Assembly (NCBI GenBank): GCA_019637155.1
Contig: JAHBWE010000033.1
Coordinates: 1-64,000 of the forward strand
Source of the DNA: Labilithrix sp.
GTDB taxonomy: Bacteria > Myxococcota_A > Polyangia > Polyangiales > Polyangiaceae
Direction of reading: 5' to 3'
DNA length: 64,000 nt
This document shows positions 6,122 to 27,346 of this stretch, one piece after another; the first letter of the stretch is position 1, and the number at the start of each line of letters is the position of its first letter. The position numbers and the translations under genes were made by a program. The notes beneath the pieces are model-generated. The model was not told the origin of the DNA and made no database searches. It saw only the letters and a list, made by a program, of their open reading frames with translations.

Positions 6122-6155
6122 GATCGTCAGGGAGACGTCTAAAGTCCCCCGCGAG

Positions 6156-6434: not shown

Positions 6435-6446
6435 GTCTCCCTTGTT

Positions 6447-6468: not shown

Positions 6469-6546
6469 AGCTCTCCCCGCCGGGGCCTCTCCGCGCGCGG
6501 AGCGCGCTGCGCCGCCCCGGGCCCCCGAGAGGGCGACCGGGGGGGG

Positions 6547-9518: not shown

Positions 9519-10997
9519 TTGACCCGATCGACCTTGCGTATCGCGTTCTTGCCGCTCGTCCTCTTCGGCGCCGTCGAGGCGTGCTCGGCCGACGACGACG
9601 CGCCCCCGCCGCTCGGAGCGAGCCCCGAGGGAGGCGCGCCGGACGGCTCGTCCACCCCCGCCGGCGACGGCGGCGACGCTCCGGACGCGCGCGACGCCCA
9701 GCCGGCGGAGCCGACGAGCATCCTCTCTTTCGCGGAGGCGAACGCGATCCGCGCGCTCTCGGCCGGCGTCGTCGAGGACGACGTCGTGGTCGCCGGCGCC
9801 GACAACTTCGAGGACGACGCCGGCAACCGGAACGCGGTCGCCTTCCGCTCCGACCTCGCCGGACGCGTCCGCTGGGCGAAGCGCGTCGGGGGCGACTTCA
9901 ACGATCAGCTCCTCACCCACGTCGTCGTCGGCGCCACCATGCACGGCTTCGGCATCACGCGGACGGTCTTCACCGGAGCGGCGCGCAACACCGACGTCCT
10001 CTGGGCGTCGGTCGACGTCGCGACGGGCGCGGTGAACGCGCTCCGCCACTTCGGGACGACCGCGAACGAGGACGCGCTCGGCTCGGTCGCGGTCGCCGAC
10101 GGCGTGGTCGTCGTCGGCGTCAGCGGGACCGACGCGTACGTCGCGAAGGTCGCGGACGGCGCCGTCGTCTGGGCGCGGACGTGGTCGACGCCCGGCACCG
10201 ACTCGTTCCGCTGGGTCGGCGTCGCCGGTGACGAGCTCGTCGCCGTCGGCTTCTCGACCCTCGTCGCCGAGGGAGGGAAGACGGAGCCGATCGTCGCGGT
10301 GTTCGATCGGAACGGCGGCCACGTTCGGTCGCGCCGTATCACCGGCGCGGCGCAAGACGTCTCCGTCTTCTCCGCGCGCGTCGTCGGCGGCGACGTCGTC
10401 CTGGCCGGCCAGACGCGCCCCGCCGCCGGAGCGCCCACCGTGCCGTTCGCGGCGCGCGTGCCGTTCGGCGACGGCCCGCTCGCGTGGGCGCGCACGTACA
10501 CGACGCCGGAGACGACCGGGAACGCGACCTTCCGCGCGACCGCGCTCGCCGGCGCCGACGACGCCTTCGACCTGCCCGAGACGCTCGCCGTCGGCGGGAG
10601 CGCGGGCGGCCGCGCCTTCCTCGCCCGCCTCGCGACGAGCGACGGACAGCCGCTCGCCCGTGTCCTCCTGCGCGCTCCGGCGGAGGCGACGATCGCGCTC
10701 GATCGCGAGGTCCTCTGGGAGCGCAAGGACCGCGGCTTCGGCACGTTCTTCCAGATGACGCCGAAGGGAAGCGAGGTCTCCGCGTCCGGCCTCGCGCTCA
10801 CGAACCGCCTCTTCGGCCTCGCGCCGGCGTGCACGTGGGCGTCCGAGCCCGCGCTCACGCTCGCCGAGCCGCCGGGCCTCGCCGCGGCCGACCTCGCGCC
10901 GGCCGTCGTGCCCGCGACCTTCACCGTCGCCGCGACCGGCCCCGCCCTCGTCACGACCGATCTCGCCCTCACGCAGGACGTCGGCTGCGCTCCCTGA
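9519..10997 (+). CDS. Predicted lipoprotein with beta-propeller-like repeats
   Basis: A 492-aa protein; only TTG starts are available (9519 or 9534). A short signal peptide ends at a lipobox-like Cys (FGAVEAC), followed by an Asp/Gly/Pro-rich linker typical of myxobacterial surface lipoproteins. The rest is beta-strand rich with recurring units such as GRVRWAKRVGG, DVLWASVDVATGAV and GAVVWARTWSTPG, resembling propeller blades in which a value is reported per unit (SBBP/PQQ-like). It is probably anchored in the outer or inner membrane and faces the periplasm or medium. No catalytic residues are recognised. Confidence 0.8.
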   Translation: MTRSTLRIAFLPLVLFGAVEACSADDDAPPPLGASPEGGAPDGSSTPAGDGGDAPDARDAQPAEPTSILSFAEANAIRALSAGVVEDDVVVAGADNFEDDAGNRNAVAFRSDLAGRVRWAKRVGGDFNDQLLTHVVVGATMHGFGITRTVFTGAARNTDVLWASVDVATGAVNALRHFGTTANEDALGSVAVADGVVVVGVSGTDAYVAKVADGAVVWARTWSTPGTDSFRWVGVAGDELVAVGFSTLVAEGGKTEPIVAVFDRNGGHVRSRRITGAAQDVSVFSARVVGGDVVLAGQTRPAAGAPTVPFAARVPFGDGPLAWARTYTTPETTGNATFRATALAGADDAFDLPETLAVGGSAGGRAFLARLATSDGQPLARVLLRAPAEATIALDREVLWERKDRGFGTFFQMTPKGSEVSASGLALTNRLFGLAPACTWASEPALTLAEPPGLAAADLAPAVVPATFTVAATGPALVTTDLALTQDVGCAP

Positions 10998-11041
10998 GCT
11001 GGAACGCACATTGCTCGTCATCGAGGGCAAGGAGCCCCGAG

Positions 11042-11293
11042 ATGGCGAAACCGAAGAGCAAGCGCCCGCCCCCGCCGCGCGACATCGACAGCGGCGACGC
11101 GTTCATTCCCGACGTCGCGCGTTCGCACACGCGCCTCATCGACGACGACGCCGAGTCGTTCGCGGAGGAGTTCATCGCCGAGGCGACCTCGGCCGAGCAC
11201 GTCGCCGAGGACGCGCGCGACGATCGCGCGGACGAGGAGCTCGACGGTCTCTACGTCCTCGACTTCGACGATCTCGACGAGCCCGGCGCGTGA
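11042..11293 (+). CDS. Small acidic hypothetical protein
   Basis: An 83-aa protein from ATG 11042 with a good ribosome-binding site (AAGGAG at 11029-11034). The N terminus is Lys/Pro-rich (AKPKSKRPPPPRD); the rest is Asp/Glu-rich, ending LYVLDFDDLDEPGA. No Cys, membrane segment or known motif is present. It lies 44 bp after the lipoprotein gene and just before the stress-type cluster. Function unknown. Confidence 0.7.
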   Translation: MAKPKSKRPPPPRDIDSGDAFIPDVARSHTRLIDDDAESFAEEFIAEATSAEHVAEDARDDRADEELDGLYVLDFDDLDEPGA

Positions 11294-11325
11294 CGCAAGC
11301 TTTGCGCGCGCACGCCCCGATTGCG

Positions 11326-11342
11326 TTGGTCGCGCTCTTGCT
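11326..11342 (+). promoter_or_regulatory. Predicted sigma-54 (-24/-12) promoter of the first CxC small-protein gene
   Basis: The sequence TTGGTCGCGCTCTTGCT has GG and GC separated by exactly ten bases and a TTGCT -12 element, matching the sigma-54 pattern YTGG..N..TTGCW. The predicted start of transcription (~11353) leaves a short leader that contains AAGGAGG before ATG 11364. An imperfect dyad GCAAGCTTTGC at 11295-11305 lies upstream. Confidence 0.5.
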
Positions 11343-11363
11343 GAGCCAAAGAAGGAGGTCCTC

Positions 11364-11651
11364 ATGAACGCGCCCAAGCGGATCGAACCGTCGCTCTCCG
11401 TCCGTCGTGCCAGCGGCACGCGGCCCGTGTCCGTCGTCCACCGGCACGCCGGCGTCGTGCGGACGCTCCTCGAAGAGGTCGACCGCACCGCGCCGAGCGA
11501 TCTCCCGGACGCGGTCGACGTCCAGCTCGCGGAGGAGCTGGGACGCCTGGGCTGCCGCTGCGTCGAGCTCGCCGCCGCCCTCGCGAAGCTCGCCGAAGAG
11601 CAACGCCGCGCGCGCGACGAGGCGCCTCTCGCGCCTGCACGTTGTGCGTGA
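11364..11651 (+). CDS. Small CxC-motif protein, paralogue A
   Basis: A 95-aa protein from ATG 11364 with a strong Shine-Dalgarno (GAAGGAGG). Its core, RTLLEEVDR near residue 33 and LAEELGRLGCRCVELAA near residue 55, recurs in the 71-aa protein at 14399 (RTLLDEVER ... VEELARLGCRCLELAA). The shared region is predicted to be two amphipathic helices with a Cys-Arg-Cys motif. The family is not one I recognise. Both members follow predicted sigma-54 promoters in the same cluster, suggesting a shared stress role. The CxC could bind metal or be redox active; that is inference. Confidence 0.75.
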   Translation: MNAPKRIEPSLSVRRASGTRPVSVVHRHAGVVRTLLEEVDRTAPSDLPDAVDVQLAEELGRLGCRCVELAAALAKLAEEQRRARDEAPLAPARCA

Positions 11652-11667
11652 GGGCGCCGACCTTGCA
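11651..11667 (+). promoter_or_regulatory. Possible sigma-54-type element before the DUF2267 gene
   Basis: AGGGCGCCGACCTTGCA has the GG-N10-GC spacing and TTGCA. The predicted start (~11678) falls only about two bases before ATG 11680, which would exclude the GGAG at 11668-11671 from the transcript. The match may therefore be fortuitous, or the true start codon lies further downstream. Confidence 0.3.
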
Positions 11668-11679
11668 GGAGCGACGCTC

Positions 11680-12120
11680 ATGAGCCCAGCCATGATCCCG
11701 ATCACGTACGACGCGCTCGTCGAGCTCACCGTCGGCCGCGGCGTCCCGAGCCGCGCGGCGGCGGAGCTCGCCGTCCGAACGACGCTCGCGATGCTCGGCC
11801 AGCTGCTCACCGACGACGAGGCCGCGTTCCTCGCGCGTCGCCTCGCGCCGGAGCTCGCGCGGCTCCTCGAGCGGAGCGAGGCCGACGTCGACGTCGACGA
11901 GCGCGCGCAGGTGGTCCTCCGGGTGCTCGGCGAGAGCGTCGACGAGGACGCGCGGCGCCTTCTCGTTCGTGTCTTGCCCGCCGAGCTCGCGCGCCATCTC
12001 GAGCCGGTCGTCTATGGAGAGCCCGAGCCGCATCGTCCACCTTCGGGGCACACGCTCGCGGACGGCCGGCCCGGAAGCCGCCGTCCGCTCTCCGAGGCCG
12101 GAGCGCGTCGGGACACGTGA
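11680..12120 (+). CDS. DUF2267 family protein
   Basis: A 146-aa protein from ATG 11680. It matches DUF2267: YDALVELTVGRGVPSRAAAE, then AVRTTLAMLGQLLTDDEAAF and a second half-repeat LGESVDEDARRLLVRVLPAEL. DUF2267 proteins are small helical proteins often next to universal stress and CBS-domain genes, as here; their biochemical role is unknown. The C terminus is a Pro/Arg-rich tail. It lies 28 bp after paralogue A and converges on the CBS gene with a 1-bp gap. Confidence 0.85.
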   Translation: MSPAMIPITYDALVELTVGRGVPSRAAAELAVRTTLAMLGQLLTDDEAAFLARRLAPELARLLERSEADVDVDERAQVVLRVLGESVDEDARRLLVRVLPAELARHLEPVVYGEPEPHRPPSGHTLADGRPGSRRPLSEAGARRDT

Positions 12121-12121
12121 C

Positions 12122-12652
12122 TCAGACCTGCGCGTGCGCGGTCGCGGCGAGGGTGTGGGCGACGGAGGACTCCGAGAGCGGATCGCGCCCCGGCGATTGG
12201 GCGAGGTGCGCGCGCCGCGCGATGTCCGAGAGCGAGAGGAGGCCCACGAGCCGTCCGTCGGCTCCGACGACGGGGAGGCGACCGACGGCGTGACAGCGCA
12301 TGCGCCGCTCCGCGTCGGCGAGCGGCTCGCGCACGTCGGCGGTGAAGAGGCGCTTCGACATCGCGGACGAGACGCGGAGGTCGAAGAGCGCGCGGCCCTG
12401 CGTGTACGCCGCCATGCAGACGTCGCGATCGGTCAGCATCGCGACGGGCTCGTCCCAGTGGTCGACGACCGCGACCGAGCCGCAGGCGTGCTCCCACATC
12501 AGCTGAGCCGCGCGCTCGAGCGAGTCTTCGGGACGACAGACCTGAGGCGCGGGACACATGACGTCGCGCACCAGGACGATCGGCGCGGTCGTGCTCTCGA
12601 CCGCCTGGAGGAGGGTGGCGAAGAGCTGGTCGCCGGGTCGGATGTCGTTCAT
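12122..12652 (-). CDS. CBS-domain-pair protein
   Basis: A 176-aa protein from ATG 12652. Two CBS motifs make up most of it: VRDVMCPAPQVCRPEDSLER ... VDHWDEPVAMLTDRDV (residues ~28-82) and SAMSKRLFTADVREPLADAE ... VVGADGRLVGLLSLSDIA (~95-148). Such Bateman modules bind adenosine nucleotides and act as energy sensors. There is no attached enzyme, so it probably regulates a partner. It belongs to the stress-type cluster and has a sigma-54-like element immediately upstream. Confidence 0.9.
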   Translation of the reverse strand: MNDIRPGDQLFATLLQAVESTTAPIVLVRDVMCPAPQVCRPEDSLERAAQLMWEHACGSVAVVDHWDEPVAMLTDRDVCMAAYTQGRALFDLRVSSAMSKRLFTADVREPLADAERRMRCHAVGRLPVVGADGRLVGLLSLSDIARRAHLAQSPGRDPLSESSVAHTLAATAHAQV

Positions 12653-12663
12653 GCCCCGCCGCG

Positions 12664-12680
12664 TGCAATCCCGGGGCCCG
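12664..12680 (-). promoter_or_regulatory. Possible sigma-54-type element before the CBS gene
   Basis: On the minus strand CGGGCCCCGGGATTGCA has GG-N10-GC and TTGCA. The predicted start (~12653) practically coincides with the annotated ATG at 12652, so either the transcript is leaderless, translation starts downstream, or the match is accidental. Confidence 0.3.
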
Positions 12681-12682
12681 AC

Positions 12683-13474
12683 CTACGAACGCGCGTGCTC
12701 CGCGATCGCGTCGACGAGCGCAGGATCGCGCGCGAAGAGATCGCCGTGGCGGCCGCCGTGCACGCGCCGCAGGACCGCGCCACGGATGCGGTGCGCGAGC
12801 TCTTCGCCCATCCAGAAAGGGACGATCTCGTCGGCGTCGCCGTGGACGACGAGCGTGGGGACGTCGATCGCCGGCGCCTTCGCGAGCGTGTCGAAGCGGT
12901 CTTCGACGAACAGCGACGCCGGCACGAACGGCGCCGCGTCTTCGATCACGGCCGGGATCGACGTGTACGGCGTGACGAGCACGAGCTTCGCTCCGCGGCC
13001 GCGACGCGCCATCTCCGCCGCGACGCCGGTGCCGAGCGACGCGCCGGAGAGGACGATACGGTCGCGTCCGATCCCGCGCGCCGCCAGCATGTCGAGCACG
13101 GCCTCGGCGTCGGCGTAGACGCCGTTCTCGGTCGGCGTCCCGCGCGAGCGGCCGTAGCCGCGGTATTCGACGAGGACGACGCCGAGGTTGCCCGCGTGGA
13201 GACGGCGCGCGAGGTCGGCGAGGCCCTCCGCCGTCTCGCGGTTCGTGTGGAAGTGCACGACGACGCGCGCGCCGAGGTCGGCCGCGAGCTCCAGCGCGCG
13301 GACCTCGACGCCGTCGTACGCGACGAGCTGATGCTCGACGAACCCGCGCGGACGCGGCAGCGGACGCAGGTCTTGCGCCGGGAAGAGGAACCTGCGCGTC
13401 GCGATCTTTCCGCCGGCGGCCACAGCCGTCGCGAGGGCGACCAGGAGCGCGCAACGACGGAGGCGTCCGAGCAT
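12683..13474 (-). CDS. Alpha/beta hydrolase with N-terminal membrane anchor
   Basis: A 263-aa protein from ATG 13474. A hydrophobic N terminus (CALLVALATAVAAGG) acts as signal or anchor. The alpha/beta-hydrolase core shows the oxyanion region VVHFHTNRETAEG, the nucleophile elbow GASLG (Ser), the acid in HGDADEIVPF (Asp) and the catalytic His in GGRHGDL. EYRGYGRSRGTPTENGVY is typical of the BEM46/FrsA-like branch. It is a probable esterase or peptidase-like hydrolase facing the periplasm, substrate unknown. It is divergent from the membrane protein gene at 13520. Confidence 0.9.
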   Translation of the reverse strand: MLGRLRRCALLVALATAVAAGGKIATRRFLFPAQDLRPLPRPRGFVEHQLVAYDGVEVRALELAADLGARVVVHFHTNRETAEGLADLARRLHAGNLGVVLVEYRGYGRSRGTPTENGVYADAEAVLDMLAARGIGRDRIVLSGASLGTGVAAEMARRGRGAKLVLVTPYTSIPAVIEDAAPFVPASLFVEDRFDTLAKAPAIDVPTLVVHGDADEIVPFWMGEELAHRIRGAVLRRVHGGRHGDLFARDPALVDAIAEHARS

Positions 13475-13490
13475 GGTCGCAACATGAATC

Positions 13491-13507
13491 CTGGACGACG
13501 TCTTGCA
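13491..13507 (+). promoter_or_regulatory. Predicted sigma-54-type promoter before the membrane protein/rhodanese unit
   Basis: CTGGACGACGTCTTGCA matches YTGG...TTGCW with GG-N10-GC spacing and sits in the 45-bp divergent gap. The predicted start (~13518) is only two bases before ATG 13520, which weakens the assignment unless translation begins downstream or is leaderless. Confidence 0.35.
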
Positions 13508-13519
13508 AAGGCCGAAGGC

Positions 13520-13918
13520 ATGTACGCGGTGCTCGCCGTCGCGGTCGACCTCATCCACGCCCTCGCGATGGTGCTGTGGATCGTGGGGTTGCCGCTCCTG
13601 TTCGTGCGCCGCTATCCGCGGCTCCGCCTCGGCTATGCGGTCTACGCGATCGCGTTCATCGTCCTGAATCGGCTCTCGATGGCGGTCCTCGACGAGTGCT
13701 TCCTCACCGCGCTCGTGCGTCCGCTCTGGGCGCGCGCGGGGGCGGTGGGCGCCGACGAGTGGTTCACCGTCCGAGCGGCCTACGTCGTGTTCGGCATGGC
13801 GCCCTCGCACCGCGCGGTGGCGCTCGCCGGCGAGGCGCTCATCTTCCTCACCGCGGCCGGCGTGCTCCTGACGGCGCACCGCGCGACCAAACGAGGACCG
13901 GCGCTCGCGAGCGCCTGA
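13520..13918 (+). CDS. Small integral membrane protein
   Basis: A 132-aa protein with about four hydrophobic helices: VAVDLIHALAMVLWIVGLPL, GYAVYAIAFIVLNRLSMAVL, a weaker one around AAYVVFGMAP, and EALIFLTAAGVLLTAH. I prefer ATG 13520 (preceded by GAAGG) over ATG 13484, which lies in the promoter-like region. A Cys (DECFLTALVRPLW) follows the second helix. The family is not securely recognised; it weakly resembles small DUF2784-like proteins. It is followed after 18 bp by the rhodanese-like gene, so the two are probably co-transcribed. Confidence 0.75.
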   Translation: MYAVLAVAVDLIHALAMVLWIVGLPLLFVRRYPRLRLGYAVYAIAFIVLNRLSMAVLDECFLTALVRPLWARAGAVGADEWFTVRAAYVVFGMAPSHRAVALAGEALIFLTAAGVLLTAHRATKRGPALASA

Positions 13919-13936
13919 TCGCGAAAGGGAGGCTCG

Positions 13937-14326
13937 ATGAACGTGCATCATGAACGAAATGGTCGCGACCGCGTCCGTACGGTCGATCCGGAGCTCCTCC
14001 ACCATCAGGTCCGGAGCGGGCGGTCGATCGTCGTCGTCGACGTCCGCCCGACCGCTGCTTATCGCGGCTCGCGAGGCCGCATCCCGGGCGCGATCTCGTT
14101 GCCGATCGCGCAGCTCGTGGCGCGCCGCGCGGAGCTCGAGCAGCATCGTCATCGGCCGATCGTCGTCGTCGCCGACGACGAAGCAGGCTCGCGCCTCGGC
14201 GCTCTCGAGCTCGAGGTCGCCGGCTTCACCGAGGTGTCGGCGCTCGAGGGCGGCATGCAGCGGTGGCTCGAGCTCCGGCTGCCGATCGTCGTTCCGACGC
14301 CGCCGCCTCCGCCGCTGCCGCACTGA
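13937..14326 (+). CDS. Rhodanese-like domain protein lacking the catalytic cysteine
   Basis: A 129-aa protein from ATG 13937 (SD AAAGGGAGG). The rhodanese fold is clear: VVVDVRPTAAYRGSRGRIPG, AISLPIAQL, PIVVVADDEAGSR, AGFTEVSALEGGMQRW. In active sulfurtransferases the loop after the central strand is CxxGxR; here it reads DDEAGSR, with Asp in place of Cys. It is therefore probably an inactive binding or sensing domain. The C terminus is a proline run. It lies in the stress cluster directly before the second CxC-protein unit. Confidence 0.85.
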   Translation: MNVHHERNGRDRVRTVDPELLHHQVRSGRSIVVVDVRPTAAYRGSRGRIPGAISLPIAQLVARRAELEQHRHRPIVVVADDEAGSRLGALELEVAGFTEVSALEGGMQRWLELRLPIVVPTPPPPPLPH

Positions 14327-14333
14327 GCGGCCG

Positions 14334-14350
14334 TTGGCTCTTCCCTTGCT
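14334..14350 (+). promoter_or_regulatory. Predicted sigma-54 (-24/-12) promoter of the CxC protein B/UspA unit
   Basis: TTGGCTCTTCCCTTGCT fits YTGGC...TTGCW with GG-N10-GC spacing. It lies in the 72-bp gap after the rhodanese gene; the predicted start (~14361) leaves a ~38-nt leader carrying GAGAGAGGAG before ATG 14399. This is one of the best matches in the cluster. Confidence 0.5.
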
Positions 14351-14398
14351 TGGCTCGTCGCGCCGGGCGCGTCGCCATGGTGGAGAGAGGAGATTTCG

Positions 14399-14614
14399 AT
14401 GAGCTCGTTGCCGTTGCCGACCAGCGTATCCGGGGTGCGCAGCCAGATCGCGTTCGTGCGGACGCTGCTCGACGAGGTCGAGCGCGCGACGAAGAGCAGC
14501 ACGACCGAGCCGCTGAGCGAGCAGGTCGTCGAAGAGCTGGCGCGGCTCGGCTGTCGCTGCCTCGAGCTCGCGGCGATGCTCACCACCACGACGGAGATGC
14601 CGCGATGCGCCTGA
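14399..14614 (+). CDS. Small CxC-motif protein, paralogue B
   Basis: A 71-aa protein from ATG 14399 with SD GAGAGGAG. It shares RTLLDEVER and VEELARLGCRCLELAA with the protein at 11364. Its N terminus is short and uncharged and its C terminus ends with a further Cys (MPRCA), as does paralogue A (APARCA). Its last bases overlap the start of the universal stress gene by 10 bp, which indicates translational coupling and a shared role. Function unknown. Confidence 0.8.
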   Translation: MSSLPLPTSVSGVRSQIAFVRTLLDEVERATKSSTTEPLSEQVVEELARLGCRCLELAAMLTTTTEMPRCA

Positions 14615-15042
14615 GCCACATCCTCGTGCCGATCGACTTCGGACCCGCGTCCGATCGTGCCTGCGCGCTCGCCGCCGAGATCGCGCCGAAGCTCGAGTCG
14701 AAGATCACGCTGCTCCACGTCTGGTCGATGCCGCTCCCCGCGTATGCGGAGGGGATCGTCTTTCCGTTCGACGCGATGGAGGCCGCGGCGAGGTCGAAGC
14801 TCGAACAGGCGCGCGCGCGCGTGAAGGAAAGGCTTCCGAACGTCGAGATCGCCCTCTCGATGGGCGTCGCGTGGGACCGCATCGTCGAGACAGCGAAGGA
14901 GCACGACGTCGACATGATCGTGATGGGCACGCACGGACGGCACGGCGCGCCGCGGTGGCTCCTGGGGAGCGTCGCCGAGAAGGTGGTCCGCCTCTCGCCG
15001 GTGCCAGTCCTGACCGTCCACGCCGACCGCGACCGCGCATGA
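14605..15042 (+). CDS. Universal stress protein (UspA family)
   Basis: A 145-aa single-domain Usp from ATG 14605. It opens with MRLSHILVPIDFGPASDRAC, has the central ITLLHVW strand and ends with the ATP-binding motif GTHGRHGAPRWLLGSVAEKV (G-2x-G-9x-GS), then PVPVLTVHADR. It is therefore of the ATP-binding type. Usp proteins bind ATP and support survival under energy, oxidative or starvation stress. It overlaps CxC paralogue B by 10 bp and shares the predicted sigma-54 promoter at 14334. Confidence 0.95.
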   Translation: MRLSHILVPIDFGPASDRACALAAEIAPKLESKITLLHVWSMPLPAYAEGIVFPFDAMEAAARSKLEQARARVKERLPNVEIALSMGVAWDRIVETAKEHDVDMIVMGTHGRHGAPRWLLGSVAEKVVRLSPVPVLTVHADRDRA

Positions 15043-15055
15043 GGAGGTCCGCCGC

Positions 15056-15160
15056 ATGTTGCTCGGCGTCCGCGACCGCGCGGAGCGCGCCGCTCGCGCT
15101 GCGCGGCATCGCGGATGCAGGTCGGAGGTCGGACCCTACGACCATTGGAGGACGCCATGA
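15056..15160 (+). CDS. Possible 34-aa leader or small protein
   Basis: A short ORF (MLLGVRDRAERAARAARH...) with a good SD (GAGGAGG at 15042-15048) seven bases from ATG 15056. Its stop overlaps the next start as ATGA (15157), the usual sign of translational coupling. The peptide is Arg/Ala-rich and matches nothing I know. It could be a real small protein, a coupling leader, or coincidence. Confidence 0.3.
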   Translation: MLLGVRDRAERAARAARHRGCRSEVGPYDHWRTP

Positions 15161-15369
15161 ACCAGCAGAGATCGACCTGGGGACACTGCGCGCACTGCAA
15201 GTTCTTCGCGAGCCCGGCGCGGGCGCCGCTCGACGGTGAGGAGGCCGCGTGCGGAGAGCCGACGCTCGAGAAGTTCCAGCTCCGCGTCGTCGGCGTCGGC
15301 GGGTGCAACCACTTCACGCTTCGCCCGGGGCTGACCGAGAGGGTGGAGGAGCCGCGCCTGTACGTGTGA
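15157..15369 (+). CDS. Small cysteine-rich (zinc-binding-like) protein
   Basis: A 70-aa protein from ATG 15157 with SD TTGGAGG. It has four cysteines arranged as HCAHCKFF, EEAACGEPT and GGCNHF, consistent with a single metal site. The C terminus is LRPGLTERVEEPRLYV. It is the last gene of the UspA unit and its 3' end overlaps the convergent acyltransferase gene by 56 bp. I see no catalytic motif; role unknown. Confidence 0.7.
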   Translation: MNQQRSTWGHCAHCKFFASPARAPLDGEEAACGEPTLEKFQLRVVGVGGCNHFTLRPGLTERVEEPRLYV

Positions 15370-16351
15370 TCCAAGCATCGACGTGCTCCCACCAGCGCCA
15401 GAGCCACTCGATGCGCTCCTCGCGGCTCGTGGGGACGTCGCGCGCGCGGACGCGCCAGAGGTGCACGCGCACCGTCTCGCCGACGAGCGCGCCGCTCAGG
15501 AGATCTCCGAGCGTGCGCGCGCGCTCGAGGCCGGTGTGCGCGCAGAAGATCACGTCCGCCGGCGGCGCCGCCTCGAGCGTCGCGAGCGGGCCGCCCAGGC
15601 GCGGCGGCAGGACGTGCTCGAGCCGGAGCGCGCGCTCGTGGGCGGCCGGATCGGCGGCGAGCTCGGCGAGCCTCTTCGCGCGCCGCTCGTCCGAGAAGCG
15701 GGTCCCCTCCGGGAAGAGCACGAGCGCGTCGTGGCGCCCGCACGCGCGCGCGACGGCCGCGACGCGCGCGAGGTCGCCGGCGCGATCGCGGCCGCCACGA
15801 TGCACGAACGCGCTGGCGACGCGGTGACCGACGAGATCGACGCACGGATCCCAGAGGAGCTCGCGCTTCGCCACGATGTGCGGCACGAGCTCGGCGGGCG
15901 CGCAGACCGTCACGAGCGGCAAGAGCACGTCGAGGAGGCTCGCGTGGCGCGTCATGACGACGGCGGGACCGCGGCGGTCGAGGACCTCCGCGCCCTCCAC
16001 CTCGACCCGCATCCCGAAGATGCGGATCGCCGACGACCAGACCGTCGCCGCGAACCAGAGCTCCGCCGCGCCGTCGAGCCGGCGCTCGTACGCGCGTCCG
16101 CGGAGGAGGCCCCCGACCCACGCGCGGAGCAGGATCGCGAGCCCGACGACGTGGAGCGTGACGACGACGAAGAGCGCCCCGACGACGCGGACCGCCGCGA
16201 ACGAGCGCGGCCGCGCGAGGTCGACGACGAGCGCCACCGCGAAGAGCGCCGGCAGCGTCGCCAGCATGACGAGCCAGAGCGCGACGACGCCGGGCACCGT
16301 CACCGCGCGGCGCGCCCATCGTTCCTTCTCCTGCTCCAGGCTCACGCCCAC
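15314..16351 (-). CDS. PlsC-like 1-acyl-glycerol-3-phosphate acyltransferase family protein
   Basis: A 345-aa membrane-associated protein; GTG 16351 is the longest start, and a later GTG (16 codons in) is possible. Two or three hydrophobic helices occupy residues ~20-85. The acyltransferase signature HX4D is in TRHASLLDVLLP, and the substrate-binding motif is FPEGTR. Family members transfer an acyl chain to lysophospholipid or lyso-lipid acceptors at the inner membrane. Its 3' end overlaps the small Cys-rich gene. The promoter region contains the large dyad at 16358-16388. Confidence 0.85.
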   Translation of the reverse strand: MGVSLEQEKERWARRAVTVPGVVALWLVMLATLPALFAVALVVDLARPRSFAAVRVVGALFVVVTLHVVGLAILLRAWVGGLLRGRAYERRLDGAAELWFAATVWSSAIRIFGMRVEVEGAEVLDRRGPAVVMTRHASLLDVLLPLVTVCAPAELVPHIVAKRELLWDPCVDLVGHRVASAFVHRGGRDRAGDLARVAAVARACGRHDALVLFPEGTRFSDERRAKRLAELAADPAAHERALRLEHVLPPRLGGPLATLEAAPPADVIFCAHTGLERARTLGDLLSGALVGETVRVHLWRVRARDVPTSREERIEWLWRWWEHVDAWITRTGAAPPPSRSAPGEA

Positions 16352-16357
16352 CGCGAT

Positions 16358-16388
16358 GCAAGGCGCGGCCCGCCGGTACGCGCCTTGC
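16358..16388. promoter_or_regulatory. 10-bp perfect dyad between the acyltransferase and ABC ATPase genes
   Basis: GCAAGGCGCG (16358-16367) and CGCGCCTTGC (16379-16388) are exact inverted copies around an 11-bp spacer, in the 98-bp divergent region. Each arm supplies the TTGC of a GG-N10-GC match: 16373-16389 (+) toward the ATPase and 16357-16373 (-) toward the acyltransferase. It may be a regulator-binding dyad, back-to-back sigma-54-like elements, or both. No T-run follows, so a terminator is unlikely. Confidence 0.45.
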
Positions 16389-16389
16389 C
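16373..16389 (+). promoter_or_regulatory. Possible sigma-54-type promoter of the ABC ATPase gene
   Basis: CCGGTACGCGCCTTGCC has GG-N10-GC spacing and TTGC. The predicted start (~16400) leaves a ~50-nt leader with GAGGAGGAAG before ATG 16450. The right arm of the 16358-16388 dyad overlaps it, so the two readings compete. Confidence 0.35.
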
Positions 16390-16449
16390 GCTGGGGTCTT
16401 CGACGCGCAGCTCGCGCGCCGCGGCGCAGGAGCTGCGCGAGGAGGAAGC

Positions 16450-17160
16450 ATGATGCCGATCATCGACGCACGCGATCTCGTGAAGAGCTACACGCTCGGC
16501 GGCGTGACGTTGCACGCGCTCGATCGCGTGAGCTTCGCGGTGGAGGAAGGGGAGCTCGTCGCGATCATGGGCGCGTCCGGCTCCGGCAAGTCGACGCTCT
16601 TGAACGTCCTCGGCTGCCTCGATCGACCCGACGAAGGGACGTACGTGCTCGCCGGTCGCGACGTCTCCGATCTCGGCCGCGACGCGCTCGCGGACGTCCG
16701 CAACCGGCTGCTCGGCTTCGTCTTCCAGAGCTTCAACCTGCTGCCGCGCACCACCGCGCAGGAGAACGTGGAGCTGCCGCTCCTCTACGGCGGCGTCGGA
16801 AGAGCGGAGCGCGCCCGGCGCGCGCGCGTCGCGCTCGAGCGGGTCGGGCTCGCCGATCGGATGCAGCACGTCCCCGGCGCGCTCTCCGGCGGACAGCAGC
16901 AGCGCGTCGCGATCGCGCGCGCGATCGTGAACGAGCCGCGCGTGGTCCTCGCCGACGAGCCGACCGGCAACCTCGACACGAAGACGAGCGCCGCGATCAT
17001 GGCGCTGTTCCAAGACTTGTGGCGCGCCGGCCTCACGATCCTCTACGTGACGCACGAGCCCGACGTCGCTCGTTACGCGTCGCGCGTCGTCACGATGAAA
17101 GACGGCCGCATCGTCTCCGACGTGAAGCAGTCGCCCTCGTCCGCGCCGCTGGCGGCCTGA
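16450..17160 (+). CDS. Orphan LolD/MacB-type ABC transporter ATPase
   Basis: A 236-aa ATPase; start ATG 16450 (or 16453) with SD GAGGAGGAA. Walker A is GASGSGKS (~residues 40-47), the signature is LSGGQQQR, Walker B is [11 protein letters not shown] and the H-loop is [26 protein letters not shown] is characteristic of the MacB/LolD/FtsE branch that powers FtsX-fold permeases. No permease gene is adjacent, so the partner must be encoded elsewhere. Its relatedness to the ATPase at 43546 (same LGCLDRP and FNLLPRTTA segments) is visible. Confidence 0.9.
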
Positions 17161-17171
17161 GTCACCGGCGA

Positions 17172-17828
17172 TCAGTCGTCGTGCTCCGGGGGTAAGAGGC
17201 GCAGCTCGACGCGTCGATCGGTCGCGTCTCCGGAGCGGCGCTGCGTGTCGGCGTAGCCGGCGAACGACAGGCGTCCGCGCTCGATCCCTTCGCCGACCAG
17301 GAAGTCGACGACGCGGCGCGCGCGCGCCTCGGAGAGGACCCTCCTCGCCGGCTCGCGCTCGGTCGCGTGCCCGGCGACGTGGAACCGCGCGCCGGGCAGC
17401 GATCGCGCGACGACGGCGAGCTCGCGGAGCGCGACGCGCGCCGGCGGCGAGAGCTCGTCGCTGCCGTGCGTGAACGAGACCTCGGCGTCGCGCGCGGCCG
17501 CGCGCGCGCGCTCGATGCGCTCTTGCGCGACGGCGACGCGCTCGATGTCGCGTGCGCGCTCGCACCGCCGCGCGTCGATGAACGCGAGCAGCGCGGCGGC
17601 CTCCGCCAGTCCTCCCGTCGGCGCGGGGAGCGGCTCGGCCGCGGTCGCGGCGGGCGGTGTGTCGGTCCATCGCTCGAGCGTCGCGCTCCACTCGCGGGCG
17701 TCGGCCGCGACGCGCGCCTCCTCCAGCGCGCGCGCTCGGAGCTCCGCCGCGCCGGCGGAGGGAGACGTCGGCTCCGTCACGATGCAGGCGGCGAGCGCGA
17801 GCACGAGCGGCGTTCGGAGGAGGTCCAC
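17172..17828 (-). CDS. OmpA-family lipoprotein
   Basis: A 218-aa protein. I choose GTG 17828, which gives a compact signal peptide ending at a lipobox (LALAAC); a TTG at 17873 only adds non-signal residues. The middle is Ala/Glu/Arg-rich and probably helical. The C-terminal ~100 residues form an OmpA-like peptidoglycan-binding domain: VSFTHGSDELSPPARVALRE, FHVAGHATEREP, LSEARARRVVDFLV, LSFAGYADTQRRSGDATDRR. It would tether the outer membrane to peptidoglycan. It is divergent from the CBS gene at 17922. Confidence 0.85.
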   Translation of the reverse strand: MDLLRTPLVLALAACIVTEPTSPSAGAAELRARALEEARVAADAREWSATLERWTDTPPAATAAEPLPAPTGGLAEAAALLAFIDARRCERARDIERVAVAQERIERARAAARDAEVSFTHGSDELSPPARVALRELAVVARSLPGARFHVAGHATEREPARRVLSEARARRVVDFLVGEGIERGRLSFAGYADTQRRSGDATDRRVELRLLPPEHDD

Positions 17829-17881
17829 GTCCGCGGTCGAGCACGCTCCGTACCTTTGCGCGACGACTCGCAAGGATTGCG

Positions 17882-17898
17882 CTGGCGCGCTGGTTGCT
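17882..17898 (+). promoter_or_regulatory. Predicted sigma-54 (-24/-12) promoter, best match in the window
   Basis: CTGGCGCGCTGGTTGCT differs from the sigma-54 consensus YTGGCACGRNNNTTGCW at only two positions and has exact GG-N10-GC spacing. The predicted start (~17909) leaves a short leader beginning at GGGAGG, ahead of ATG 17922. An inverted repeat TTGCG-N8-CGCAA (17856-17873) lies just upstream and could bind a regulator. Confidence 0.55.
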
Positions 17899-17921
17899 CT
17901 GGCTCTCTCGGGAGGTGCGCC

Positions 17922-18635
17922 ATGGCGACGTTCCTACGCGAGATCATGAACCCCGAGCTGGTCGCGTTCCCCGAGAGCGCTCGTCCCGACGAGGCGCTCG
18001 AGCGACTCCTCGCGCTCGAGATCACGGCCGCGCCCGTGATCGACGCCGATCGCCGCCCGATCGGCGTCACCTCCATCCGCGACCTGCTCCGCGACGCGCG
18101 CACGCGGCCGCCGATGAGCGCCCCTGCGCTCGCGGTGTCCGCCAACATGCTCGTCGAGGACGCGGCGCAGGTCCTCGCCGAGAGCGGGCGGCATCACCTC
18201 GTCGTGGTGGGGAGCGACGGGCGGCTCGCCGGCTTCGTGACGAGCCTCGACCTCCTCCGCGCGCTGGTGGGGCTGCCGCCGCGTTTCCCGGCCACGTTCC
18301 CTCATCGCGACGAGAAGCTCGGCGTCGCCTGGACGGACACGATGCCGTTCGACGCGAGCCACGTCGCCGCTGCGCCGGAGGAGGCCGGCGTCCTCGTCCT
18401 CTCCGTCGGCGGCGTCGCGCGCACCGAGCAGGACCTGCGCGTCGAGGAGGCGGCGTCGCTGCGGACCCGCCTGCGCGAGCTGCGCGAGCTTCCGCTCGGC
18501 GACGGGAGCGCGCTGGCGCGGGCGCTCCAGCGGACGGACCTGCGGTTCCGCTGCGCTCGAACCGACGATCCGGCGCTGCGGGCGCACGTCGTCCGCGAGC
18601 TCCGCGAGCGCATCGAGCGCGCACCCGTCGCGTGA
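17922..18635 (+). CDS. CBS-domain protein with an extra C-terminal domain
   Basis: A 237-aa protein from ATG 17922 (SD GGGAGG). CBS motifs occupy residues ~5-60 (LREIMNPELVAFPESARPDE ... VIDADRRPIGVTSIRDLL) and ~70-130 (LAVSANMLVEDAAQVLAESG ... VVGSDGRLAGFVTSLDLL). The C-terminal ~100 residues are a charged helical region not typical of bare CBS proteins. It is predicted to bind adenine nucleotides and regulate a partner. It follows the best sigma-54-like promoter in the window and parallels the CBS gene at 12122. Confidence 0.9.
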   Translation: MATFLREIMNPELVAFPESARPDEALERLLALEITAAPVIDADRRPIGVTSIRDLLRDARTRPPMSAPALAVSANMLVEDAAQVLAESGRHHLVVVGSDGRLAGFVTSLDLLRALVGLPPRFPATFPHRDEKLGVAWTDTMPFDASHVAAAPEEAGVLVLSVGGVARTEQDLRVEEAASLRTRLRELRELPLGDGSALARALQRTDLRFRCARTDDPALRAHVVRELRERIERAPVA

Positions 18636-18640
18636 GCGCA

Positions 18641-18657
18641 GCGGCACATGCACTGCA
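18641..18657 (+). promoter_or_regulatory. Weak sigma-54-like element upstream of the CNNM/CBS gene
   Basis: GCGGCACATGCACTGCA has GG-N10-GC and the GGCAC half of the consensus but CTGC instead of TTGC. It lies in the 181-bp gap 18636-18816, which otherwise holds only a doubtful ORF (ATG 18648 or 18672 to 18809; 53 or 45 aa, MDPSCILVVHLSRPG...) with no recognisable relatives. Confidence 0.2.
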
Positions 18658-18816
18658 AGCGAAGGCGCTGCATGGATCCGTCCTGCATCCTGGTCGTGCA
18701 TCTCTCGCGGCCCGGCACGACGCGCGCCGTCTCGATCGCGATTCACGCGAGCTCGAGGGCACCGTCGAGCGCGATCGCCGCCGCACGGACGCACGAGCTG
18801 GTCGCGTGAGCGGAGC

Positions 18817-19836
18817 ATGAGCGACTCGCTCTTGTCCCTCGCGCTCGCGTTCGCGCTCGTCGGCGTCAACGGCGTCTTCGTGGCGGCGGAGTTCGCGATC
18901 GTGCGCGTGCGCCGGACGCGGCTGGAGGAGCTGGTCGGCCTCGGGCACGCGCGCGCGACGGAGGCGATCGAGCTCGTCGACAAGATGGCCGACTACCTGA
19001 CGACGACGCAGATCGGCGTGACGGCGACGAGCCTCGGCGTCGGGTGGCTCGGCGAGAGCGCGTTCTCGCGCCTCATCGCGGGGGTGCTGCCGGAGGGGAA
19101 CGACGCGCTCGCCCATCTCCTCGCCGGCGGCGCGGCCTTCCTCGTCGTCACGTTCGTGCACGTGGTGCTCGGCGAGATCGTGCCGAAGAACCTCGCCGTC
19201 GTGCACGCCGATCGTTATCTCATCGCGCTCGCGCCGCCGCTCCGGATCCTGCACCGCGTGCTTCGCCCGCTCTCGGTCGCGTTCACCGCCGTCGCCGGGG
19301 CGGTGCAGCGCGTGCTCGGCCACCGCGAGCGAACGCCGTCGCCGCTCTCGGAGCATGAGCTGAAGCTCGTGATGATGGACTCGCACGAGGACGGCGTCCT
19401 GACGCGCGGCGAGGCGTCGATCATCCTCCGCGCCTTCGAGTTCGCCGACAAGCACGCGAGCGAGATCATGACGCCGGCGGAGGACGTGGACTACGTCTCG
19501 CTCTCGCGCACGTTCGAAGAGAACCTCGCCGTCGCGCGCGCGCACATGCACACGCACGTGCCGCTGTGCCGGACCGGCCTCGACTCCGCCTACGCGCTCG
19601 TGTCCGTGCTCGACGTCCTCTTCCGTTTCGAGAGCTCGAACGAGGCGTTCGAGCGCGCGGCCAAGCCGCTCCTCGAGGTCCCGGCCGACCTCTCGCAGGA
19701 GGAGGTCCTTCGCCGCTTGAAGGTCTCCGGCGCGCACCTGGTCGTCGTCCGCGCGGCCCCGGCCCGTCGCGTGCTCGGCGTCGTCACCCTCGAAAACGTC
19801 CTCGGCTCCCTCGTCGCCGGCGTCGCGGAGCCGTGA
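18817..19836 (+). CDS. CNNM/CorC-type membrane protein (DUF21 plus CBS pair)
   Basis: A 339-aa protein from ATG 18817. The N-terminal DUF21/CNNM domain has helices at LLSLALAFALVGVNGVFVAA, the conserved EFAIVRVRRTRLEEL, YLTTTQIGVTATSLGVGWLG and HVVLGEIVPKNLA. A CBS pair follows from ~residue 200 (SEIMTPAEDVDYVSLSRTFE ... GVVTLENVLGSLV). The usual C-terminal CorC_HlyC domain is missing, so the protein is shorter than typical ~430-aa members. Relatives are linked to Mg/Co transport or efflux. The left copy of the 23-bp repeat begins immediately after its stop codon. Confidence 0.9.
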   Translation: MSDSLLSLALAFALVGVNGVFVAAEFAIVRVRRTRLEELVGLGHARATEAIELVDKMADYLTTTQIGVTATSLGVGWLGESAFSRLIAGVLPEGNDALAHLLAGGAAFLVVTFVHVVLGEIVPKNLAVVHADRYLIALAPPLRILHRVLRPLSVAFTAVAGAVQRVLGHRERTPSPLSEHELKLVMMDSHEDGVLTRGEASIILRAFEFADKHASEIMTPAEDVDYVSLSRTFEENLAVARAHMHTHVPLCRTGLDSAYALVSVLDVLFRFESSNEAFERAAKPLLEVPADLSQEEVLRRLKVSGAHLVVVRAAPARRVLGVVTLENVLGSLVAGVAEP

Positions 19837-19859
19837 CGTCACCGCGCGCGGACGTCGTG
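19837..19859. repeat. Left copy of a perfect 23-bp direct repeat
   Basis: This copy begins right after the CNNM/CBS stop codon and is identical over 23 bp (core CACCGCGCGCGGACGTCG) to 23692-23714. The two copies bracket the lower-GC NHL lipoprotein gene, as attachment sites or an insertion-associated duplication would. The flanking bases differ on both sides. Confidence 0.8.
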
Positions 19860-19955
19860 CGGAAACGTCGACACGCCACATTCTGTGTGTCAGACCGTTC
19901 GGCTATCCCAGAATGGCCTCTACCATTTCGGCGTCTCGGCTACTCTTCTCGATCG

Positions 19956-22900
19956 ATGCGCTGGCAGTTCGGAGGGGTCGCGCTCATCGGTCTCGTCGCG
20001 TCGTGCGGTGGGAAGACAGGGATACCCGACGATCGGCTGCCGGATGAGGAGCAGCCGAAGCTGGGGCTGCAGGGGTCGTGTCCGGCCCAGCACCCATGCG
20101 CGACCGAGCACTGCCTGCTCGTTATCCCTTCGGGTGCGCTGCCCGTCGAGGCGAAGGTGGAGCTCGTCGAGCACGTCCGGCCAAGTGCGCTCGAAGGTGA
20201 GACCACGGCGCCCTTCGTTTGCGAGATCACGACGAGCGGCACTCCGGCGTCGCCGCTCGACCTCACCGTGCGTCTCGGCGGACCGATCCCGCCGGACACG
20301 ATCCTCTTCAAGTACGGCGATGTCGTCACTGCCGTGAAATCATCCACTCCAACCGGCGAACGCGTCCAGGCGCTCGTTCCTGGCGCAGGGGTCTACGGGG
20401 TCACGCAGGCATCCGAGACGTGGCGGCTCGAGAGTACGTTCGAGCACGATCCGCTCTCTTCGGGCGATACCCCCGCGCTCCTCCGCAACTTCGCGCGGCA
20501 CAGCACGTTCGCCGCCTACTGGGATGGTACCCGCTTCTTTCTCGGCAATGGACCACGCGTCCTGATCTGGAATGGGATCCCGAAGCCGGGAGAACGACCA
20601 TCCGTCATCGTAGGTTCTCCCGACATCGATCACGTTCCGGAAGGTACCTCTTCCTCGAAGCTCGGTGGGACGGTCGCGGCAATCTGGTCCGACGGCAAGA
20701 AGCTCGTCGTTGCGGCAGGCAATCGAGTGCTCGTTTGGAGCTCGGTCCCGAGCCGTAACTTTGCAACGGCCGATCTCGTGTTGGGGCAGCAGGACTTCGT
20801 GGCGAACGGCGCGAACGCCGGTGGCGTCTCCGCTTCAACGATGTCGAGGCCCAGCGCAATCGACTCGGATGGCGAGCGTCTCCTCGTCGCTGATCTCTTG
20901 AACCATCGTGTTCTTGCATGGTCGCGGTTTCCCACCAGCATTGGCGAGCCGGCGACCTCCGTGCTGGGGCAAGGATCTTTCGGTTCCAGTGATATCGCTA
21001 CTTTTTACCAGCCTTGGAGTGCGGTTCTCGACGGCCCCGGCGCACACGTCGCGAGCTACTTCGGGGGACCATCATGGTTCGAGAGTCTCGCGACCAACAC
21101 GACACCGTCTCCACCGCCGATTCCGGCCGGCGGTCCGACGCGTGTCCATTCGGATGTGTTGCCTCATACCTCCGGCGTCGCGCGGCTGCCGAGCGCCGTG
21201 GCCTACCTCGATCCATTTGGTCGGCGCATCGCAGTCCATCGCGACGGAGCGAACGACGCGATCCGCTTCGTCCTCGGACAGCCCGACACAACACGTGCAG
21301 CGATGAACCCCGTCTCGGCGTCCACCTTCGAAGAGGGGAGGCTGCTCTTTGCGCACGGACGTCTGCTCGTTCCGGATCGCGGTCGCGTCCTCGTCTACGA
21401 CACGCTTCCGACATACAACTTTGCACCGGCGTCCCGCGTCGTCGGGACAGCGGGATTCACCGTCTCGGATTCGGCTGCCGATTATCGCCGTATCTCGGCC
21501 TCCGCGCTCGCTCGTCCGGCCGATGTCGCCGCGAATGGTTCCGTCGTCGCGGTTGCTGACCGCGCCAACAACCGCGTCCTCCTCTACGACGCGCGCCTGC
21601 CGATCTCGAACGCAGCTGCCACCGTGGTGCTCGGGCAGCCGGACGCGCGCTCGTTCATTCCGAACGTCGATCAGGTCAAACCTGGCGCCGCGACCCTGTC
21701 GGGGCCGACGGCGGTGGCGCTCGACGACCGTAGGTTGTTCGTCGCCGATACCGAGAACCACCGCGTCCTCATGTGGTCCCCAATCCCGACGAGATCGGGC
21801 GTCCCTGCGAACGTCGTGCTTGGACAAACCGATGCTGTATCCAATCGACCCAATCATGGCAATGACGACGCGGACGGAGATGGGTATTCGGATGCGGACG
21901 CGCGGGGACTCTTCGCGCCCTCCGGCATCGCGACGGACGGGACGAACCTCTTCGTTTCGGACCGCGTGAACAACCGCATACTGGCGTGGAGAGACACCTC
22001 GAGGCTGTTCGACGGTCGCCCTGCCGACGTCGTCATCGGACAGCCGACCTTCACCGAGAGCAAGGCCAATCACGGGACCGACCCGTTCTCGCCGCGGCCG
22101 GACGGCTTCAACCTTCCGACGGGCATTACGCTCGCGCGTGGTGCTCTATGGATTGCCGACACGGAAAATAACCGGATTGTCCGTTGGGACGAGCCACTCT
22201 CATCAACGGCCGCGACGAGCTTCATCGGTCAGGCGACCGGCTCGGCGATTTCGAACCCCAACGTTTACGGCAGGACGTCGGTGAACGCGGGCGCTGCGCT
22301 CGTCTCTCCGACGAGCGCAGCATCGGTTGTCCGGCCGAGGGCCGTCGCCGTCCGCGGTGACGTCGTGTTCGTCAGTGAGTCGACGACGAACCGTGTCCAT
22401 GTCTTTCGTTCCACGGAGACCGGTGCCCAGCCCATTGGACAGATCGGCCAGCGCGAAGCGACGACCGCGATTCCGAACGAGAATGGTCTTGGACCGCGAT
22501 CGCTCTCCGCTCCCGAAGGCCTCTTCGTTCGCGACAATGACCTGTTCGTCGCCGACAGCGCGAACCATCGCGTGCTCTGCTTCGACGCCAGCATCTCGAC
22601 GAGCGAGATGAGCGCGACGAAGGTCCTCGGACAGGCTTCCTTCTTGTCGTCGGGCTTCAACCAGTCTGCTGCGGTGACCGCCGGCGGGGCGACGAGGCCG
22701 CGCGGTCTCTGGCTCCAAGGCAATGACCTCTTCGTTGCAGAGTCGAGCCGCAATCGAGTCGTCGTTCATACCATCCCGCTCGTCGCCGGCGCGACGCCGA
22801 CGCGGATCCTGGGCCAGCCTGACGCGAACCTCTCTCTCCCCAATGCCGGGGGGGAGGCGACAGCGGCGTCGTTGTCGTCGCCGAGTGGTGTCTTCGTGGA

Positions 22901-23681
22901 CAACGGACGCGTGATCGTCGCTGACACGGGCAATCATCGCGTCTTGATCTTTCCGCGCAATGGATCGGAGGCTGCGGTCGTCCTCGGACAACAGACGTTC
23001 ACGGCGTCGGAACGAAACGGAGGACGGAGACCGTCCGCATCGACCCTCGCCGCGCCCAGTGCCGCCGTTTCCGACGGCGAACGTCTCATCGTCGCTGATA
23101 CCGGCAACCATCGAGTACTGGTATGGGACCGGATCCCGACGCAAAATGGACAGCCTGCCGATCGCGTTTTCGGACAATCCGACTTCGAGGTGGTCATGTC
23201 GAACCGCGGTAGCGCGGCCGCGTCCGGTCACACGCTCAACCTGCCGAGCGCACTGCTCGTCGACGGCCATCGCCTCTACGTCTCCGACACCGGCAACAAC
23301 CGCGTTCTGGCGCTTCGTTTGCCTATCACGAAGGACGCCGAGGCCGAGCTCGCGCTCGGTCAACCGGATCTACGGTCGCGTACGGCGTCTGCGGATATCA
23401 ACGATTCGTCGCGTCTTAGCGGGCCTGTCGCGCTCGCGTCGGACATGACGAACCTCTTCGTCGCGGACCGCGACTCGAACCGCGTGGTCGCGTATGATCT
23501 CGCGACGGTGGCGATGGGCGCGACGGCGCACACGCTCTTCAATTCCAACAGCGGGCTTGTCGCGGTGGGACCAGCTGGGCTCGCGGTCGAGCGGACGCCG
23601 CTCTTCACGTCGCGGCTCTTCGTGGCCGATACGAACAACGATCGTATCCTCGTCCTTTCGTCGGTGACCCGGCTTCGGTGA
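19956..23681 (+). CDS. NHL-repeat lipoprotein, compositionally atypical
   Basis: A 1241-aa protein from ATG 19956; the upstream frame to 19566 is only an overlap with the preceding gene. The signal peptide ends at a lipobox (GLVASCGG). A ~200-residue N-terminal domain precedes at least thirteen NHL-like units, each with a VADxxNxRVLxW strand (for example VADTENHRVLMW, VADTGNHRVLIF) and a following VLGQ motif, which should form one or more beta-propellers. It probably sits on the cell surface and binds protein, glycan or nucleic acid. Codon use is less GC-biased than in its neighbours, and 23-bp repeats flank it, suggesting acquisition. Confidence 0.9.
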   Translation: MRWQFGGVALIGLVASCGGKTGIPDDRLPDEEQPKLGLQGSCPAQHPCATEHCLLVIPSGALPVEAKVELVEHVRPSALEGETTAPFVCEITTSGTPASPLDLTVRLGGPIPPDTILFKYGDVVTAVKSSTPTGERVQALVPGAGVYGVTQASETWRLESTFEHDPLSSGDTPALLRNFARHSTFAAYWDGTRFFLGNGPRVLIWNGIPKPGERPSVIVGSPDIDHVPEGTSSSKLGGTVAAIWSDGKKLVVAAGNRVLVWSSVPSRNFATADLVLGQQDFVANGANAGGVSASTMSRPSAIDSDGERLLVADLLNHRVLAWSRFPTSIGEPATSVLGQGSFGSSDIATFYQPWSAVLDGPGAHVASYFGGPSWFESLATNTTPSPPPIPAGGPTRVHSDVLPHTSGVARLPSAVAYLDPFGRRIAVHRDGANDAIRFVLGQPDTTRAAMNPVSASTFEEGRLLFAHGRLLVPDRGRVLVYDTLPTYNFAPASRVVGTAGFTVSDSAADYRRISASALARPADVAANGSVVAVADRANNRVLLYDARLPISNAAATVVLGQPDARSFIPNVDQVKPGAATLSGPTAVALDDRRLFVADTENHRVLMWSPIPTRSGVPANVVLGQTDAVSNRPNHGNDDADGDGYSDADARGLFAPSGIATDGTNLFVSDRVNNRILAWRDTSRLFDGRPADVVIGQPTFTESKANHGTDPFSPRPDGFNLPTGITLARGALWIADTENNRIVRWDEPLSSTAATSFIGQATGSAISNPNVYGRTSVNAGAALVSPTSAASVVRPRAVAVRGDVVFVSESTTNRVHVFRSTETGAQPIGQIGQREATTAIPNENGLGPRSLSAPEGLFVRDNDLFVADSANHRVLCFDASISTSEMSATKVLGQASFLSSGFNQSAAVTAGGATRPRGLWLQGNDLFVAESSRNRVVVHTIPLVAGATPTRILGQPDANLSLPNAGGEATAASLSSPSGVFVDNGRVIVADTGNHRVLIFPRNGSEAAVVLGQQTFTASERNGGRRPSASTLAAPSAAVSDGERLIVADTGNHRVLVWDRIPTQNGQPADRVFGQSDFEVVMSNRGSAAASGHTLNLPSALLVDGHRLYVSDTGNNRVLALRLPITKDAEAELALGQPDLRSRTASADINDSSRLSGPVALASDMTNLFVADRDSNRVVAYDLATVAMGATAHTLFNSNSGLVAVGPAGLAVERTPLFTSRLFVADTNNDRILVLSSVTRLR

Positions 23682-23691
23682 TCTTCGCGGT

Positions 23692-23714
23692 CGTCACCGC
23701 GCGCGGACGTCGTG
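23692..23714. repeat. Right copy of the 23-bp direct repeat, at the 3' end of the Nudix gene
   Basis: Identical to 19837-19859. On the minus strand this copy encodes the last residues (HDVRAR) and the stop of the MTH1-like Nudix protein. Integration at a gene's 3' end that regenerates the coding end is typical of attachment sites. The spacing between copies is 3855 bp. Confidence 0.8.
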
Positions 23715-24176
23715 GGAGAGCATGCGGTCGCCGTCGAAGATGAAGCGGCCTTGGAAGTGTTCGCGGCGGAGGAGGCGTGGGAGCCATATCGCGTCGTCGG
23801 CCCACATGCGTGGCCATGGGATCGCGTCGAGAGGAGTCCAGATCGGCTTGGCCTCGTCGGTCTCGATCGGCTCGCCCACGCATGCGTCGGCGCGGAACAC
23901 GTGGCAGTGCAGCGTGTAGCCGTCGACGAAATGGAACGAGAGCTCGCCGTGCTCGACCACGCCGGTCGCGCCGACGCCGACCTCCTCGCGGAGCTCCCGC
24001 ACCGCCGCGTCGAACGCGGACTCGTCCGGCTCGATGCGACCGCCCGGCGCGTTGATCTTCCCCGCGCCGAGCCCCCGCTTCTTCTCGATGAGGAGGAGCC
24101 GCCCAGCCTCCTCCTCCACGATGAAGAGGAGCGTCGCGCGGTCCCGCGGGCTCCACGACTCCCAGTCGACGTCCAT
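23694..24176 (-). CDS. MTH1-like Nudix hydrolase (probable oxidised purine dNTP pyrophosphatase)
   Basis: A 160-aa protein from ATG 24176. The Nudix box GX5EX7REUXEEXGU is complete at residues 46-68 (GRIEPDE...RELREEVGV). Beyond the box it resembles human MTH1 throughout: Asn42 in GKINAPGG corresponds to Asn33, and MWADD (Trp125, Asp127, Asp128) corresponds to the base-recognising Trp117, Asp119 and Asp120. EHFQGRFIFDGD matches the MTH1 C-terminal region. It likely cleans 8-oxo-dGTP or 2-OH-dATP from the nucleotide pool. The longer upstream open frame is spurious. Its 3' end forms one copy of the 23-bp repeat. Confidence 0.9.
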   Translation of the reverse strand: MDVDWESWSPRDRATLLFIVEEEAGRLLLIEKKRGLGAGKINAPGGRIEPDESAFDAAVRELREEVGVGATGVVEHGELSFHFVDGYTLHCHVFRADACVGEPIETDEAKPIWTPLDAIPWPRMWADDAIWLPRLLRREHFQGRFIFDGDRMLSHDVRAR

Positions 24177-25190: not shown

Positions 25191-25198
25191 GCTCGTCA

Positions 25199-27341: not shown

Positions 27342-27346
27342 CCGCG

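Follow-up and report, generated by a model that had tools for sequence, protein, structure and literature searches.

A lower-GC gene coding for an NHL-repeat lipoprotein probably entered this genome at the 3' end of a Nudix hydrolase gene, duplicating 23 bp of that end in a one-off illegitimate event at a junction where gene content varies. The evidence consists of a perfect 23-bp direct repeat in the window (the whole 64-kb stretch of DNA that was analysed), the single gene enclosed by its two copies, the odd composition of this gene and a cargo-free version of the same junction in a congener.

The 23-bp repeat and the end of the Nudix gene

The left copy of the repeat (CGTCACCGCGCGCGGACGTCGTG, 19837..19859, plus strand) opens directly 3' of the TGA stop codon (19834-19836) of a gene coding for a CNNM-domain protein of 339 aa with a C-terminal CBS-like stretch (18817..19836, plus strand). 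Read in the direction of the Nudix gene, which is on the minus strand, the right copy (23692..23714, plus strand) spans the six final codons of this gene (HDVRAR), its stop codon and 2 bp past it. The preliminary description had already placed the two copies at these coordinates, between differing flanks, with the left one starting right after the CNNM stop and the right one encoding the last Nudix residues and stop, and all of this was confirmed (the identity extends over exactly 23 bp and the flanks are unlike each other), with the addition of the 2 bp beyond the stop. Only two exact copies of the 23-mer exist in the whole 10.1-Mb genome, so it is no widespread motif, and a search allowing up to 3 mismatches yields one more site, with 2 mismatches. 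No paired arms are evident by inspection around the repeat, no Rfam family was matched, no promoter or terminator was recognized by consensus at the left edge, and no tRNA lies near the repeat (the only one in the window is at 59314-59399).

The Nudix hydrolase (160 aa, 23694..24176, minus strand; Pfam PF00293) has orthologues at 74-78% in three congeners, in which its neighbourhood is conserved. The C-termini of its relatives read FDGDRMVDHDL(V) followed by a variable tail, and the protein of this genome ends in FDGDRMLSHDVRAR; the His-Asp-Val contained in the right copy aligns with the His-Asp-Leu/Val of the relatives. The conserved codons are alignable over just 9 of the 23 bp; carrying them in frame, the right copy is native at least over this stretch, the first 9 bp as read along the Nudix gene. 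No such role falls to the left copy, which is the derived one.

Markov models of order 3 and 5, trained on the window minus the tandem array at 54200-54900 (300 simulations each), produced a 64-kb sequence with a repeat of at least 23 bp in 1.0-1.7% of simulations (1.7-2.3% in a Gumbel fit), and the fitted value falls to 0.4-0.5% when the copies are required to lie no more than 5 kb apart. The earlier estimate for a chance match, well under 0.01, was therefore somewhat optimistic for the window as a whole (1-2% per 64 kb), although about 0.4% applies within 5 kb. Placement is a stronger statistic than repeat length. The longest exact repeat shared by the two 200-bp flanks was determined for 1,306 genes in 1.68 Mb of this genome: it is 12 bp in 27 genes, the number drops to 3 at 15 bp, and it exceeds 15 bp in three genes only, namely the NHL gene, with 23 bp, and two of the three paralogous lipoprotein genes that make up a tandem array. 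Chance is unlikely because, tandem paralogues aside, no other surveyed gene has flank repeats longer than 15 bp.

Other repeats were observed in the course of this work. Positions 54249-54900 of the window form a tandem array whose units recur about every 75 bp, with exact repeats of up to 88 bp. Elsewhere in the genome (G000), contig C4 carries a 38-bp perfect repeat (268132 and 272683) around 4.6 kb in which two genes were called (its right copy falls within the 3' portion of a gene for 882 aa), and contig C1 carries two near-identical copies, 8 kb apart (158558 and 166632), of an 80-bp element that contains a long perfect hairpin (AAAAACGT-TCTG-ACGTTTTT), whose core is found at five places in 1.68 Mb.

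The NHL gene and its relatives

The segment between the repeats (19860..23691, plus strand, GC 0.646) consists of 96 bp upstream, one complete gene as its sole gene, and 10 bp downstream. This gene (19956..23681, plus strand) codes for an NHL-repeat lipoprotein of 1,241 aa (Pfam PF01436, E 8e-47), full length when compared with its orthologues. Its N-terminus (LVASC) marks it by inspection as a lipoprotein, and the protein, whose sequence is only distantly related to those of solved propellers (NHLRC2 and TRIM71, for instance), is taken to be a secreted beta-propeller. The weaker GC bias noticed earlier for the one gene between the repeats is borne out by its GC of 0.649 (vs 0.71-0.73 nearby) and by its GC3 of 0.754, the lowest among the 158 genes of more than 600 aa in 1.68 Mb, all others being at 0.83 or above; values as low as this occur in about 0.1% of the 1,185 genes of more than 150 aa. 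The orthologues of two relatives have a GC3 of 0.87 (G006) and 0.93 (G020), so a low GC3 is peculiar to the present copy and no trait of the family.

This is the only NHL gene of its kind in the genome, and a search of 183 further genomes of the order found full-length orthologues in seven, counting a truncated one. A search of GTDB contigs for near relatives gave one full-length match, at 40%, plasmids gave partial matches only (below 60% identity) and phages gave no match with the protein. In the tree, the gene groups with that of G006, then with that of G020 and then with another family of the order; since this follows the taxonomy of the order, it is within the order that the gene is passed around or inherited, and an origin in a distant phylum was rejected. 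On these sequence relationships, relocation or old inheritance with losses would be as possible as transfer from afar. The G006 orthologue lies at another convergent 3'-3' junction (locus L094, 6322-10098 on contig C36 of G006), and this junction is itself variable, being occupied by two small genes in G004 and by one 364-aa gene in G003.

Gene content at the junction in congeners

In the congeners G003, G004 and G006 the 3' end of the Nudix gene faces the 3' end of a small MKRK-type gene, the conserved ancestral neighbour, which in the window lies at 6153..6434 (plus strand), and the NHL gene is absent from the junction. Gene order is common to the three congeners on both sides: on the Nudix side it covers the window genes from 24345 to 31513 where contigs reach, and on the far side the MKRK-type gene and the genes at 5406 and 4801, together with the gene at 3260 and the first gene of the window in two of them. 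The gap between both genes measures 134 bp in G003 (an empty site), 0.7 kb with one gene in G006 and 6.2 kb in G004, where it holds three genes. In this genome 17.3 kb separate the two, and the MKRK-Nudix junction is therefore a gene-gain site.

The remainder of what separates them here (6435..19836) is missing from the junction in G003, G004 and G006; it codes for a histidine kinase, DUF2267, CBS, hydrolase, rhodanese and Usp proteins, and also for acyltransferase, ABC ATPase, OmpA, CBS and CNNM proteins. No close orthologue of the CNNM protein was found in 57 related genomes (the best match is at 36% identity), nor in any congener, and the CNNM/Nudix junction is not ancestral for the latter reason. 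By this comparison of gene orders, the whole of 6435-23691, CNNM gene included, is variable cargo, of which the NHL gene is one part and probably the last arrival. The idea that the NHL gene alone constitutes the insertion was rejected, as the whole of 6435-23691 is lacking at the same junction in G003. The preliminary description had looked to relatives for an empty site at the CNNM/Nudix junction: a cargo-free junction does exist (G003), but the ancestral neighbour in it is the MKRK-type gene and not the CNNM gene. The opposite outcome that it had envisaged, relatives always keeping the NHL gene there without the repeat, does not hold, given the relatives without the gene at this place.

At 6431-6550 lies one copy of an element that is strongly palindromic, roughly 100-120 bp long and has at least 60 matches in the genome. 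Most of the 30 copies examined begin a few bases from a stop codon, many occupy gaps between convergent genes, and small tandem arrays are formed on contigs C5 (9843-10425), C13 (175187-175746) and C6 (7018-7408). It has no Rfam match, and no copy of it was found among the matches listed for 11 congeners.

Origin of the duplication and comparison with known systems

The course of events that we regard as probable would start from convergent CNNM and Nudix genes with stop codons 2 bp apart, in the order CNNM-TGA-CG-TCA-Nudix obtained by joining the sequence at the repeat. None of the genomes searched has a CNNM gene directly beside the Nudix gene together with just one copy of the repeat, so this exact pre-insertion state is one that we infer. 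The complete lower-GC NHL gene, together with 96 bp of upstream and 10 bp of downstream sequence, would have been inserted at the end of the Nudix gene, arriving alone and last; the Nudix gene would have been kept intact, and its last 23 bp duplicated beyond the NHL segment. The cause was probably a one-off illegitimate event acting with no dedicated recombinase, such as the filling-in of a staggered break with a captured fragment between its ends. Neither in the NHL segment nor in the cargo proteins scanned was a recombinase, transposase or phage domain detected. Gene calls from the Nudix loci of ten relatives were set against the window, and the scanned cargo proteins of the congeners include no integrase. 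Terminal inverted repeats are lacking (at best 11 of 25 positions match). Neither a transposase domain in the segment nor related NHL copies elsewhere in the genome were found. Terminal repeats of at least 16 bp end just one of the 54 low-GC segments surveyed, the NHL segment itself, and a search over 1.68 Mb for a general cassette mechanism showed terminal repeats at low-GC segments in no excess over random segments. An illegitimate insertion is favoured because of the lack of recombinase, transposase and terminal inverted repeats and because this is the sole repeat-ended case among those 54 segments. What had been proposed earlier thus stands in part: a late, compositionally foreign gene is precisely framed by the two copies of the end of the Nudix gene and is absent there in relatives, but the site-specific component of the proposal is not supported: neither a recombinase nor a terminal inverted repeat nor a second example was found.

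Site-specific integration is unlikely on balance but stays the main rival, because tyrosine-recombinase elements recombine between direct repeats 8-60 bp in length and frequently take the 3' ends of genes as targets, leaving the genes undisrupted (PMC5704250), and because such events occur in this very genome, where a 43-bp perfect duplication of the 3' end of a tRNA-Cys gene forms an att-type scar around a 2.4-kb stretch in which three small genes lie and an integrase is not obvious (locus L198, contig C5, 137757-140160). The 23 bp would be the attL and attR cores of an element without a recombinase of its own, lost or never possessed, similar to cis-mobilizable ones, with the Nudix 3' end as the target. 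However, no recombinase domain lies between the repeats or in the rest of the cargo, in congeners with the same Nudix gene any repeat of its 3' end within the locus measures 13 bp at most, and the repeat has no evident arms, so that an att-type cassette devoid of recombinase is possible but unsupported. The narrower proposal that the NHL segment is a minimal one-gene cassette, whose target, the Nudix 3' end, is recognized and restored by a recombinase encoded elsewhere, is quite improbable; if true, myxobacteria could swap secreted-protein genes as bare cassettes.

The data leave the order of the two acquisitions free, and the cargo at the junction differs among strains, so alleles for recombination exist; the NHL gene might then have come to lie beside the Nudix gene before the cargo from the MKRK-type gene to the CNNM gene was joined in front of it together with a donor Nudix end, of which the left copy would be the last 23 bp. 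This is somewhat less likely than site-specific integration, since the donor must match the last 23 bp of the Nudix gene, a non-homologous join is required on the other side, and the low GC, confined to the NHL gene, points to it as the later arrival. That two GC-rich gene ends match by chance, or that the assembler joined a separate circle at a common 23-mer, is very unlikely, even if 1-2% of the simulated windows contain such a repeat and the assembly is a draft, in 46 contigs: the copies edge the compositionally oddest long gene, within 120 bp on the 5' side and within 10 bp on the 3' side, the background of flank repeats ends at 15 bp in the 1,304 other genes (tandem paralogues aside), and an assembly loop would require a circle with the same 23-mer.

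The illegitimate insertion at the Nudix end, if correct, offers a clear one-gene example of large soil bacteria adding surface-protein genes at conserved tail-to-tail junctions, which are left undamaged, and the exact scar makes the insertion step testable in close strains. The locus resembles CIMEs and other integrative elements of gene 3' ends in its short direct repeats (8-60 bp in those systems), one of them holding the intact end of the host gene, in its recombinase-less cargo and in the stacking of cargo at one site; unlike in CIMEs, no related integrase-bearing element is known at this Nudix gene, the core site lacks symmetry and the cargo is a single gene. It shares with transposon target-site duplications the doubling of the target sequence on both sides of the insert, but not a transposase or terminal inverted repeats, and 23 bp exceeds most transposon target duplications. 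With gene-gain hotspots it has in common the conserved convergent flanks, a cargo that differs per genome and a near-empty site (the 134 bp of G003), although most hotspots have no repeat and one cargo boundary here keeps a 23-bp duplication. As a scar left by gene gain the locus is clean but ordinary, and the kind of event that it records is already known.
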